From positions 1,426,001-1,490,000 of the forward strand of contig CP002190.1 of the NCBI GenBank assembly GCA_000525675.1: a DNA stretch of 64,000 nt, read 5' to 3'. The notes under the pieces are model-generated. The model saw nothing but the letters and a program-made list of their open reading frames with translations, had not been told where the DNA came from and did not search any database. Source of the DNA: Bdellovibrio bacteriovorus W (lineage in GTDB: Bacteria > Bdellovibrionota > Bdellovibrionia > Bdellovibrionales > Bdellovibrionaceae). Shown here piece after piece: positions 56,144 through 60,691 of the stretch (positions are counted from its first letter, which is position 1; each line of letters opens with the position of its first letter). Both the position numbers and the translations under genes were made by a program.

Positions 56144-57118
56144 ATGTCAGCTATATATTTCATTCTATCAGGACTACTCAGTTTCCAAGCTCATTCTGCA
56201 ACGATGGAAGTGGCGGCCAGTCCAGAAGATCGAATTTTCGTGCGCGGACTCGATGCACAGGTTCATTTTATAGCGCAAAGCACCCCACAATGGAAAGTTT
56301 CAGGCATTGAAGAGTCTGCTGAGGGGCAGTTTGTAATGACGAAAAAACAAGGGGTGCTTGAGATCCGCATGGTTGAACCCGGTGGTAAAAAGAACTGGCT
56401 GGCTTCTTTAACTCGTGGTGGCGCTCCGAAGAAAATTGAAATTGTGGGGCCCGCAGTACCCGTGGAAGTTCAACTCCGTGGAGGCAGCGTGATTATGCAA
56501 AAATGGGGAAAAGCAGCCAAAGTCAGTATGACAAGTGGGCGCTTTTCTGCAATCGGCGGTGCTGGTGAGTACAATATCCATGTTCAAAAGGGAGATATCT
56601 CTATTCAAGACCATCAAGGTCGTGTTGTGACGGATATGTACGCAGGATCAACCACGCTTTTGAATATCCAAGGAGACGCTCAGGCCACTGTCTTTACTGG
56701 GAATCTTAATATTGAAAAGATGCGAGGCAATCTCAACCTCTTCACTCAACAAGCGAACTCAAAAATCAATGCGAGCACAGGTTCTTTGCAATTTGATAAT
56801 GGCAAAGGCGCTCTGGCCGTGACCTCTTTTGAAGGACGCCTGGAAGGCCAAAATCTGGACGGCAGCATCAATGTTCACATGGCTTTGGATTCAGAACTTG
56901 ATGTTCGCTCAAAAGCCGGCCGAGTAGCTGTTCAAACACCAGCAAACTCAGGAATGAGTTTAAATCTATTAACCAATGAGGGTGAAATTGTTGTACCAGC
57001 ACCTTTACGCGTGACTCGTTTGAGCGCTGAGCGCAGCGTTCGTGGTAAGATGCGGGGCGATGCGCAAAGAGGAAGTGTTTTTGTGCGCAGTCAAGAAGGA
57101 ACAATTTCCGTGAAATGA
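56144..57118 (+). CDS. Exported DUF4097-like beta-helix protein
   Basis: A 324-residue protein with a short signal peptide (IYFILSGLLSFQAHSA) and then a repetitive beta-rich body, with repeating short strands such as GDISIQDHQGRVVTDMYAG, GNLNIEKMRGNLNLFTQQAN and SLQFDNGKGALAVTSFEG. This resembles DUF4097/DUF2807 putative adhesins with a right-handed beta-helix. No catalytic motif. GGGAG precedes the ATG, and a good promoter stands upstream. It is divergent from the thiolase gene. Probably periplasmic or surface-exposed; the function is unknown. Confidence 0.8.
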   Translation: MSAIYFILSGLLSFQAHSATMEVAASPEDRIFVRGLDAQVHFIAQSTPQWKVSGIEESAEGQFVMTKKQGVLEIRMVEPGGKKNWLASLTRGGAPKKIEIVGPAVPVEVQLRGGSVIMQKWGKAAKVSMTSGRFSAIGGAGEYNIHVQKGDISIQDHQGRVVTDMYAGSTTLLNIQGDAQATVFTGNLNIEKMRGNLNLFTQQANSKINASTGSLQFDNGKGALAVTSFEGRLEGQNLDGSINVHMALDSELDVRSKAGRVAVQTPANSGMSLNLLTNEGEIVVPAPLRVTRLSAERSVRGKMRGDAQRGSVFVRSQEGTISVK

Positions 57119-57182: not shown

Positions 57183-58127
57183 ATGGCTAAAATCGTAAAA
57201 AAGAAGGCCCCTGCGAAAGCGGCGAAGGCGACTAAATCAACTTCGAAGGCGACCACTAAAAAAGCGGCACCTGTAAAAGCAGCTAAAGCGACAGCTAAAA
57301 AGGCTGAGAAAACTGTTGTGAAGAAAAAAGCAGCAGCAGCTAAGCCCGTTGTTAAAAAAGCAGCTCCTATTAAGAAAAAAGTAGAAGCTAAAGCTCCTGT
57401 TAAAGCAAAAGCAGTTAAGCCGCCGGTTAAAGAAGTGAAAGCGACTAAGAAGGCAGCAGCTCCTCAAGAGGAAGTTGTTAAAAAGCCTAAGAAAGTAGCT
57501 GAACCTCAGCCTGTAGTTGAAGAAAAGCCTAAAAAAGAGGCAAAAGCTGCGGCTGCCCCTAAAAAGGCCACTAAAGCTAAAAAAGAAAAAGAGAAAGAAA
57601 AAGACGACTCTATCGATGAAGATTTTATCTCGGAAGATGGACTTGGCGATGAAATCGGCGAGTACGAAGAAGAGTTAAAAGCCGTCGAAGAAGCTGATGA
57701 AGAAGTTGAAGTTGAGGAAGAATGGACTGGGGAAGAAAAATCTCCAGAAGATGAAGAGATCTACCTCACAGATGCTGAAGGTCGTCGCTATTGCCGCGCA
57801 AGAGATTGCGATCAGGCAGCTATTGTTGATGTTTATTGCCGTTACCACTACCTCCTTTATTGGAAGAAGATCCAAATTCGTAAGAAAATCTTGGATGATG
57901 GTAAGCTTGAAAGATACGTGGAAGAACTCACATCTCGTTATCCGGATAAGTTCTTAGAAATGATTCGCCGTGATCTACGCACTGAAAAAGACTTCTTAGC
58001 AGCGATTCAAGAGCTAGAGCTTGATGAAACAGCTCAAGAGAACGATTTTGAAGAGGATAGCCGCGACTTTATTGAAGAGGTTCGTGGGATGGAGAGTTCT
58101 TCGTCCGTAGACGACGACGACTACTAG
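57183..58127 (+). CDS. Three-part histone-H1-like / acidic / Cys-His protein
   Basis: A 314-residue protein with unusual layout: residues 1-140 are a Lys/Ala/Pro-rich tail of KKA/PVKA units like eukaryotic histone H1 or bacterial AlgP/HctB tails; residues 141-195 are strongly acidic; residues 200-225 contain a Cys-His cluster (C204, C209, C219, H222 in YCRARDC, VYCRYHY) fit for one zinc; then a helical domain (LERYVEELTSRYPDKFLEMI) and a second acidic end. The basic tail suggests nucleic-acid binding and the acidic part an internal mask or partner site (inference). A palindromic repeat begins 3 bp after the stop. Confidence 0.82.
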   Translation: MAKIVKKKAPAKAAKATKSTSKATTKKAAPVKAAKATAKKAEKTVVKKKAAAAKPVVKKAAPIKKKVEAKAPVKAKAVKPPVKEVKATKKAAAPQEEVVKKPKKVAEPQPVVEEKPKKEAKAAAAPKKATKAKKEKEKEKDDSIDEDFISEDGLGDEIGEYEEELKAVEEADEEVEVEEEWTGEEKSPEDEEIYLTDAEGRRYCRARDCDQAAIVDVYCRYHYLLYWKKIQIRKKILDDGKLERYVEELTSRYPDKFLEMIRRDLRTEKDFLAAIQELELDETAQENDFEEDSRDFIEEVRGMESSSSVDDDDY

Positions 58128-58252: not shown

Positions 58253-58334
58253 TCGGTTCTCGGTTTGATTTGGAATCTATTGAGAATATTTGGTTTGTGC
58301 GGTGGTTTTTTGGGGAAATTTTGAAAATATTTTG

Positions 58335-58366
58335 GCCTGCGACGCGTAGTTGCAGGCTTTTTTTAT
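58335..58366 (+). terminator. Intrinsic terminator
   Basis: GCCTGCGAC / GTTGCAGGC stem (one G-T pair), 5-nt loop, seven T. It ends the transcript through the histone-like gene and the repeat. The rest of 58253-58476 holds no gene. Confidence 0.88.
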
Positions 58367-58476: not shown

Positions 58477-58953
58477 ATGCTAAAGAGCATCGCTCTTTGC
58501 GCCTTGATGATGTGTGCGTTAACCGCTAACGCCGATGTTCGTTTTCCTTCGGGACCTGATGCTTCACTAACTCCTGGAGTTTTGTGCAAGTCTTCTCGAA
58601 ACATAAGATATCCCGAGAAAATCAATTACTGTGATCGCAATGTTTCTTCGAACACTAAAAGAGAAGTGTTCATGCTTTATGATCAAATTGGTTTCCGTAC
58701 GCGTACGATGAAGCGCCAAGACTTTAAAATTGATCACTACATCCCGCTTTGTGCCGGTGGAAGTAACGACATTAAAAACCTTTGGCCACAACACATCACA
58801 GTCTACAGAATCACTGATGGTCTAGAGCAGGCTGTATGTGAGAAGATGGCAGCCGGACGATTGTCTCAGAAGCGCGGAATCGCGTTTATTGTAGAAGCTA
58901 AGAATAATCTTGAAAGAGCTTCTTACATCCTGAACGTTGTTCGCGGTCTTTAA
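58477..58953 (+). CDS. Exported HNH-like nuclease
   Basis: A 158-residue protein with a signal peptide (MLKSIALCALMMCALTANA) and an HNH-type core: Asp86-His87 in KIDHYIPLCAGGSND followed by Asn101 in KNLWPQ, the pattern D-H-x-P-L-x-x-GG-x-N of secreted HNH endonucleases. The mature part has four Cys. GGAGG lies a few bases before the ATG. The leader can form hairpins (CTGCCA...TGGCAG near 58442). With the exported SNase at 18124 it makes two secreted nucleases in one window. Confidence 0.85.
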   Translation: MLKSIALCALMMCALTANADVRFPSGPDASLTPGVLCKSSRNIRYPEKINYCDRNVSSNTKREVFMLYDQIGFRTRTMKRQDFKIDHYIPLCAGGSNDIKNLWPQHITVYRITDGLEQAVCEKMAAGRLSQKRGIAFIVEAKNNLERASYILNVVRGL

Positions 58954-59097: not shown

Positions 59098-60018
59098 ATG
59101 AGTCGCAAAAATGCCGTTCTACTAGCCGATGATCTTTCAAATAAAAATTCAGATACTCAGAAGAGATCGCAAATCTTGCAAAAGTTTGCAACGGACCTTG
59201 CGGGTCTTTTTGGATGCAAGACAGATCTAGCTTATATTTACAACACTCCACAGTGGGTGAGTCGTAACTTAACTCTTGAAGATGCCAAACGCATTGAAAC
59301 TCTAGAGTTTGAAAAACAATCTAAAGAAATGAAAAATATTTCTGCGTTTGATCGCCTGATTGTAAAACTAGGCTGGCCTATAGATTTACTTTTAAGACTT
59401 TCAAAAGATCAGCGCTATTCAGCAATGGTTCTAGGAACTAAAGCAGCTCACGGTATGGATCGTTTCTTTCTTGGAAGTGTTGCTGAAGAAGTTGCACGCT
59501 CTGTAAAAATTCCTTTATATATTCTTGGTCCAGCCGTGACTTCGACAAACTACCAATTAGATTCTAAAAATCTCCAGCTCGTTGTAGCGACAGATCTCAC
59601 GAAGCACTCGCGTGCAGCTGAAGCCTATGCTGTGGGGCTTGCGAAGAAGTTAGGTGCAAAGGTTCACTTTTATTACTCTCTCAAAGAGGTTGCAGAGAGT
59701 GCGCAAAAGTTTGCCTACCTAGGTGGCGATGCACTCCCTGTTTTTGATAATGTTTTAGAAGACCTTAAAAAAGACGCAATGGCATCCATGCAGAAAAAAT
59801 TAGATCGCTTGAAAGCCCAAGGTGTGAATTGCGACGCCCATATCGATTCTAGTGATGTGGAGTTAATCGATGGAGTTCTTAAACTTGCAAGCACTCCAAA
59901 CAGTCTTATTGTAATGGGTCATCAGGGACGCGGATTTATTGCGCAAGCTTTTTTAGGAAGCAACATGCGCAAAATTATCAGCCAAGCAAAAGTGCCTGTG
60001 GCTGTTGTGCGATCTTAA
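59098..60018 (+). CDS. Tandem universal stress protein (two UspA domains)
   Basis: A 306-residue cytoplasmic protein with two Usp domains, about residues 4-148 and 155-306. Both have the ATP-binding end pattern: LGTKAAHGMDRFFLGSVAEE in the first (partly degenerate) and MGHQGRGFIAQAFLGSNMRK in the second (G-x2-G-x9-GS). Usp proteins respond to starvation and stress by unknown means. Its TAA shares bases with the TAA of the convergent downstream gene, an unusual one-strand-to-other overlap. Confidence 0.9.
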   Translation: MSRKNAVLLADDLSNKNSDTQKRSQILQKFATDLAGLFGCKTDLAYIYNTPQWVSRNLTLEDAKRIETLEFEKQSKEMKNISAFDRLIVKLGWPIDLLLRLSKDQRYSAMVLGTKAAHGMDRFFLGSVAEEVARSVKIPLYILGPAVTSTNYQLDSKNLQLVVATDLTKHSRAAEAYAVGLAKKLGAKVHFYYSLKEVAESAQKFAYLGGDALPVFDNVLEDLKKDAMASMQKKLDRLKAQGVNCDAHIDSSDVELIDGVLKLASTPNSLIVMGHQGRGFIAQAFLGSNMRKIISQAKVPVAVVRS

Positions 60019-60608
60019 TGTAATTTGTTTTTATTGCGAGGTGAGGATGTCGTGTCCTCATCTTCTTTTTCCTCTTGGTAGTTTTCGTCATCTCGAGGCG
60101 GAGAAAGTTCCTCATCAAGCTCGGCGCGCGTCAGAGCATCTTCATCATCCATATCTTCTTCGTTGAAAAGATCTTCGTCTGTAAGGCCTAAGAGGCGATT
60201 GGCTTCTTCTTCAAGAGATGAGTTTTCTGTTGAAAACTGAAGAAATACTTTATTGCCCTGAAAATTAAATTCTTTCCAAGCATAGGGGAAGTCGACTTCG
60301 CCTTTGCTTTCTAGGTATTCCATCATCATACTAGCTGCCGCGTCCACGCAGTTGTGAATGCGCTGAAGGGCATCCTGCTCTGTCTGAGAATAGTTCATGG
60401 AAGTTTCGAAATTTGCCTGCGCAAGACGCCCTTTTTCAAGATATCCAACGCGCAGCATAATTTCTTCGCTATAAATGCGTCCGTCGATAATAAGAGTCGC
60501 ATCTTTTAAAAACTCAGCAAAGTTCTCGTTAAACACCGCTAGGATCTGATCCGAGTATTCTTTGGGAAATTTAGTCCAAGATTTTGAGCTTTTTAAGCGT
60601 GGATTCAT
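60015..60608 (-). CDS. Hypothetical protein with acidic C-terminal tail
   Basis: A 197-residue protein of unknown family. ATG at 60608 (MNPRLKSSKSWTKFPKEY) is chosen because GGAG lies about 10 nt upstream; an ATG at 60635 is also in frame. The first 140 residues form a mixed domain (ILAVFNENFAEFLKDATLII, NFQGNKVFLQFSTENS) and the rest is a Glu/Asp-rich tail with no fixed structure. The stop overlaps that of the usp gene, so no terminator fits between. miaB starts divergently 83 bp away. Confidence 0.75.
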   Translation of the reverse strand: MNPRLKSSKSWTKFPKEYSDQILAVFNENFAEFLKDATLIIDGRIYSEEIMLRVGYLEKGRLAQANFETSMNYSQTEQDALQRIHNCVDAAASMMMEYLESKGEVDFPYAWKEFNFQGNKVFLQFSTENSSLEEEANRLLGLTDEDLFNEEDMDDEDALTRAELDEELSPPRDDENYQEEKEDEDTTSSPRNKNKLH

Positions 60609-60691
60609 AGGGAAAGTCTCCATCAACTTTGACATTATTCTAAGGCTCCTCTATAACTCACTTTCTTTAATGACACAAGAGGTAACAAACG

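Follow-up and report, generated by a model that had tools for sequence, protein, structure and literature searches.

A near-universal lysine-tailed knuckle protein of the Bdellovibrionota and its linked convergent partner gene

Among described bacterial proteins, the closest in layout to the one reported here are AlgP and PhaF of Pseudomonas, in which a disordered Lys/Ala/Pro tail of the histone-H1-like KPAA type is joined to a small structured domain. To our knowledge, neither protein carries a zinc knuckle. DNA binding in vitro is on record for the KPAA-repeat peptides of AlgP, and the similar tail of PhaF is believed to act likewise (PMC9239181, a text in which the word zinc is absent). Within the genus Bdellovibrio, the histones Bd0055 and Bd3044 are likewise candidate chromatin proteins. 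In the available text of Hocher et al. (PMC10627809), Bd0055 is the most abundant nucleoid protein of attack-phase cells and Bd1238 the only other notably abundant predicted DNA-binding protein of the nucleoid in that phase; the account given there of the attack-phase nucleoid fraction does not name a lysine-tailed knuckle protein. The available text of a 2023 review (PMC11318664) names HU, IHF, Fis, Dps and the two histones, and adds that yet unidentified proteins may help histone Bd0055. The words histone, nucleoid, purine and guanine are all absent from the main text of Karunker et al. (PMC3627812). Our literature search, with most subscription journals and bioRxiv preprints outside its coverage, found no publication on the lysine-tailed knuckle protein.

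The window analysed here is a stretch of 64,000 nucleotides from Bdellovibrio bacteriovorus W (contig CP002190.1, positions 1,426,001 to 1,490,000, forward strand), and its features are collected in Table 1. ORF 57183-58127 encodes a long, low-complexity, Lys/Ala(/Pro)-rich tail of the kind seen in AlgP, PhaF and Chlamydia Hc2 (residues 1-140, with 48 K+R, 36 A, 13 P and 12 D+E), then an acidic linker (residues 141-194, 28 D+E against 2 K+R), and then a conserved module of ~95 residues that begins with the Cys-His cluster. The tail of AlgP is C-terminal, whereas the tail here is N-terminal. The initial annotation had given the ORF, its strand, coordinates and length and the numbering of C204, C209, C219 and H222 correctly, and the composition confirmed its layout of Lys/Ala tail, acidic block and C-C-C-H cluster in a single ORF. 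The window contains 66 ORFs that start with ATG and reach 100 aa (any frame, overlapping ones counted). Measured over 80 aa, this ORF ranked first among them for K+A content, at 0.65 against 0.33 for the runner-up, and for positive charge, at +26 against +16. The C-terminal module was 52-86% identical among relatives inside the order, and the start MAKIVKKK was common to 22 of 103 distinct orthologues. Because module and start are both kept in relatives, the ORF is a real gene. A search for a long tandem DNA repeat behind the lysine tail found none in this genome, where three short arrays scored 30-43.

Table 1. Features of the knuckle gene, its partner and the intervening region (positions in the window)
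Feature	Position	Strand	Basis
Whole ORF, lysine-tailed zinc-knuckle protein, 314 aa plus stop	57183..58127	+	orthologues found
Basic Lys/Ala/Pro-rich N-terminal tail, aa 1-140	57183..57602	+	composition; variable among orthologues
Acidic linker, aa 141-194	57603..57764	+	composition
CCCH knuckle, C204-x4-C209-x9-C219-x2-H222	57792..57848	+	orthologue conservation; AF2 pLDDT about 90 or more
Helical part of conserved module, aa 220-304	57840..58094	+	alignment of 65 orthologues; AF2 helices
Acidic C-terminal tail, aa 295-314	58065..58124	+	composition; sequence not conserved
Terminator-like hairpin 3' of ORF 57183-58127	58334..58358	+	consensus scan
Purine riboswitch RF00167	58389-58484	+	48.8 bits, gathering 37
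Convergent partner gene of 206 aa, not assigned to any family; alpha/beta core with acidic tail	60015..60635	-	neighbourhoods, profile, AF2

A homologue search with the C-terminal 124 residues gave a single match in the protein's own genome. Counting that genome each time, it matched 58 of the 59 genomes in the relatives set and 221 of 240 sampled from the phylum Bdellovibrionota; a profile search again returned 221 of 240. Among sampled phylum genomes of good quality the module was present in 184 of 188, and it was single-copy in all but 2 of the 221 genomes (G085 and G168, two matches each). The related loci came mostly from Bdellovibrio, Bdellovibrionaceae and Bdellovibrionales, among them B. 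bacteriovorus strain kdesi (L041). From 116 loci one false match from Opitutales (L076) was removed and excluded from all counts, since the match covered only query residues 32-78, the reading frame concerned has no Cys cluster, and its genome yielded no profile match; this left 115 proteins, 103 of them distinct. The pattern C-x4-C-x9-C-x2-[H/D]-Y occurred at exact spacing in 103/103 distinct orthologues and so does not reflect chance, and because the loci were chosen by whole-module similarity, this figure measures conservation rather than discovery. The initial annotation had proposed checking the conservation of the four ligand residues, and their loss in orthologues was not seen: all three Cys were kept in 103/103 and the last ligand was His in 101/103, with Asp in two (L077 and L078). 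R220, Y223, W227 and D264, together with the three Cys, were invariant in an alignment of 65 members. On a tree with 49 family-labelled rows, 19 label changes were counted against a minimum of 18, which fits vertical descent; the bootstrap had not converged, and many forks stay open. No homologue was confirmed in viral contigs, phages or plasmids. The module was found in 0 of 96 genomes from the phylum of genome G253, an empty result that proves nothing by itself, and the scan of genome contigs for relatives used one query sequence and reaches close relatives only.

The region ahead of the module was far more variable. At least 80 residues preceded the knuckle in 98 of 103 orthologues, and 94 of 103 contained an 80-aa stretch of net +15 or more. 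The exceptions included the tail-less L094 (117 aa) and L093 (123 aa); a further one (L043) lies at a contig edge and may be cut. Of the 101 orthologues with sufficient length for this test, 62 had an acidic stretch (-12 or lower over 40 aa) before the knuckle; from L077 onward, where the loci are more distant, 7 of 38 tested had one. The linker motif GDEIGEY..ELKAVEE occurred in 23 of 103. Judged from composition across the orthologues, the basic tail is usual, fast-changing and sometimes absent, and the acidic linker is found mainly in the window's relatives. Since linker and tail both vary, the three-part layout amounts to a local version of a two-part family, made of a variable basic tail and a constant knuckle module. 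Self-masking by the acidic linker, which the initial annotation had proposed as a possible accompaniment of DNA compaction, was accordingly rejected as a general mechanism, as the linker is not conserved. The knuckle-plus-helix core was near neutral (median net +1), with its first part alone basic (median +5), and the C-terminal region past model residue 94 carried a median of -12 (65 orthologues). Many of the loci L087-L090, L095, L096 and L109-L116, mostly of family f17, had a conserved stretch of ~40 residues like EEIVSLADDFSLNEIFEAIQSLSFF just before the knuckle, in the position taken by the acidic linker and ILTDAEG in the window's relatives.

AlphaFold2 modelled the module (65 sequences) with a mean pLDDT of 73.1. 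Block values were 88-95 over the knuckle and first helices, then 72-77, then 42-58 later, so that the helices after the first ones (block pLDDT 53-77) were of moderate to low confidence. No Pfam or NCBIfam family matched the ORF, with nothing near cut-off and no HNH family in either library at E up to 10. PDB sequence profiles gave no significant match to the module (best E 0.39) and neither did Foldseek against the PDB (best E 3.4); the best VIA match was A20 ZnF7, with Z 3.7 over 31 residues. Neither Foldseek nor VIA listed a histone fold, a possible difference from Bd0055 and Bd3044, and VIA listed no larger domain; the histone-fold family PF07524 reached E 0.018 at best, with matches in 12 of the 65 members. 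The three Cys and the His (or Asp) at conserved positions suggest that the module would bind zinc.

The recurrent likeness of the knuckle was to phage HNH endonucleases. At E up to 1, phrog_1271 matched 52 of 65 members and phrog_5351 51 of 65 (best 4.8e-5 and 2.7e-4), and Foldseek against viral models returned many HNH proteins (best E 0.046). In both phage families the CCCH knuckle is followed by aromatic and basic residues, as here. The window's module covered only profile positions 36-107 of 361, with the HNH cores in these genomes at ~248-325; by this coverage the catalytic core is missing from ORF 57183-58127, which has instead the long lysine tail. The WRKY19-type zinc finger PF24906, from an otherwise different protein, showed weak likeness to the knuckle only (best E 0.00035; 12 of the 65 members reached E 1 or better). 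In three further genomes, from other families of the phylum, the phage profile also recovered small proteins that carry a tandem pair of CCCH knuckles (L143 2793-3080, L144 2708-3100 and L145 2730-3128); two of these proteins have Lys-rich tails. These matched the N-terminal regions of the phage HNH proteins at best E values of 2.9e-14 to 2e-10 and had no HNH core; in a profile comparison with our module only 30 columns, the knuckle itself, aligned (probability 53). Its likeness to all three groups indicates that the knuckle is probably a shared building block.

We found a second conserved element in the neighbourhoods of the knuckle gene (77 in all, comprising the loci over 4 kb plus the window). 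Homologues of the convergent gene 60015-60635 recurred in 57 of these and lay on the opposite strand in 55, and a partner profile found the gene in 196 of 240 phylum genomes. Among the matches listed (149 partner and 150 knuckle genomes, 132 common to both), the two genes shared a contig in 120 of the 132 and lay on different contigs in the other 12. In the same-contig genomes among these, the partner was downstream of the knuckle gene in 120 of 120 and convergent in 117, at a distance of at most 6 kb in 104 and within 100 bases in 16. This conserved linkage of a convergent acidic alpha/beta gene to the knuckle gene is new here. No family matched the partner (best E with PDB sequence profiles, 1), and by their profile matches the knuckle protein and its partner each represent a family without a name, both of them markers for most of the phylum. 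AlphaFold2 predicted an alpha/beta core for the partner (mean pLDDT 84.7; strand, helix, three strands, helix), followed by a tail of variable length and charge. The C-terminus of the partner proteins is frequently Leu-His, or a His that follows an acidic tail, and such a recurrence is unusual. Across 55 pairs the tail charges of knuckle protein and partner did not covary (Spearman 0.20, p 0.14; the expected sign was the reverse), and the orthologue L094 retains the partner in spite of its missing basic tail. The partner therefore probably touches the knuckle module rather than the lysine tail, and we reject the alternative that the two proteins are linked mainly through an acidic partner tail that shields the lysines.

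Our best explanation, to which we assign a probability of roughly 0.45, is that this chromosomal protein of the Bdellovibrionota, passed on vertically and normally present as one copy, is a two-part nucleic-acid tether, most likely nucleoid-associated, that works with a partner. The flexible Lys/Ala tail would bind DNA (or RNA) with no sequence preference, like histone-H1-like tails, and the zinc-knuckle and helix module would dock specifically, either on a partner or on a nucleic-acid structure, and would hold the conserved function; the acidic alpha/beta product of the convergent gene would most likely act in the same process. Binding of nucleic acid by the basic tail is plausible from its composition and from the behaviour of the AlgP and PhaF tails, and we infer the nucleoid role from the same two points; nucleoid location and interaction with the partner are thus presumed. 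For the tether we count the prevalence of the module, its invariant columns, the basic stretch, the vertical descent, the recurrent weak match to the HNH knuckle, the linkage of the partner, its retention beside the tail-less L094, and the precedent of the AlgP and PhaF tails. On the other side, L094 and L093 lack the tail, so that nonspecific DNA binding can account for only part of the function. Also counted against the tether are the near-neutral charge of the knuckle-plus-helix core, the fact that gene order can persist without physical interaction, and the other proteins named from the nucleoid fraction in the available text of Hocher et al.

We weighed several other explanations. An RNA- or ribosome-associated protein, with its tail on rRNA or mRNA, its knuckle on the ribosome or an RNA enzyme, and an HPF-like neighbour cooperating, is unlikely. 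The first half of the partner may indeed resemble HPF, and its best structural matches were HPF/YfiA proteins (Z 5.7 for Vibrio cholerae HPF, 5.4 for that of E. coli and 4.1-4.7 for others), but values below 8 lie in the range of common arrangements, type III secretion chaperones matched too (Z 2.6-3.6), and no PDB sequence profile gave an HPF match, so that we read the modelled fold as a hint only. HPF binds rRNA through a basic surface; the partner core is acidic (median net -8, range -15 to +1 in 55 members, taken as a proxy for its surface). The presence of miaB close by in 38 of 77 neighbourhoods would fit an RNA role, but these neighbourhoods are mostly from the window's own order (also L093 and L094). 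A DUF4097 (toastrack) protein lies directly upstream of the knuckle gene (56144-57118, +), and the same neighbour recurs in 34 of 77 neighbourhoods.

It is quite unlikely that the protein is a transcription factor or RNA-polymerase accessory whose module contacts the polymerase or a promoter while its tail anchors it on DNA. Some primary sigma factors carry Lys/Ala-rich extensions that keep them on DNA, and a single-copy, phylum-wide gene would suit such a role; the match to a sigma-factor model (E 0.64) was, however, compositional and far below the curated cut-off, and no transcription-factor family was prominent among the best 25 of 37 families in the Pfam member scan. We consider it improbable that the gene is the domesticated remnant of a phage HNH endonuclease, stripped of the catalytic core and extended by a tail. 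The matches of the PHROG HNH families and of the viral models to the knuckle, and of the double-knuckle proteins to the same phage profiles, could be read in this way, but the alignment with the double-knuckle proteins is confined to the knuckle, and a shared mobile knuckle explains the similarity equally well. A histone and histone-chaperone-like pair, with the acidic tail of the neighbour as a shield for the lysine tail, is very improbable. Linkage of the two genes is conserved and the charges in the window are opposite (+26 over 80 aa, against -17 for the partner's tail and -7 for its core), but the tail charges do not covary, most f17 partners are nearly tail-less beside a long lysine tail, and L094 has the partner and no lysine tail to shield.

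Between the two genes lies a separate regulatory element. The terminator consensus scan that placed a hairpin behind the knuckle gene found 5 hairpins on both strands, against a shuffle mean of 1.9. The purine riboswitch further downstream overlaps the start of ORF 58477-58953 (+). This ORF, judged by eye, begins like a signal peptide, and it matches HNH proteins weakly (E 0.002), so that its product is probably an exported HNH-like nuclease. The GACUA junction, which we take to mark guanine-type purine riboswitches, points to guanine as the ligand. The 3' strand of P1 contains GGAGG, and guanine may therefore switch translation of this ORF off; in a plain MFE fold of the stretch the aptamer P1 was not shown. 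The riboswitch was present in 11 of 13 related loci scanned, and the two loci that had none (L044 and L045) also had no nuclease match. Control by a purine switch would be unusual for a nuclease with the potential to digest prey DNA, and our literature search found no paper describing such a case.

The initial annotation had also suggested a nucleoid protein of the growth-arrested attack phase. Presence in 221 of 240 phylum genomes is housekeeping-like and argues against a role specific to that phase; a gene kept as one copy across the phylum more probably has a basic function. As sequence comparison presents it, the family combines known building blocks, is unnamed by any library used, and is linked to a second unnamed family. 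It is possible, if doubtful, that the two linked genes form a phylum-specific two-part system of chromatin or gene expression; if so, other bacteria would use unrelated proteins for the same core job. For a part in packing a large genome into the tiny cell of an attack-phase predator, this lysine-tailed protein is a direct candidate: it is nearly universal, its knuckle is invariant, and its partner gene stays consistently linked.
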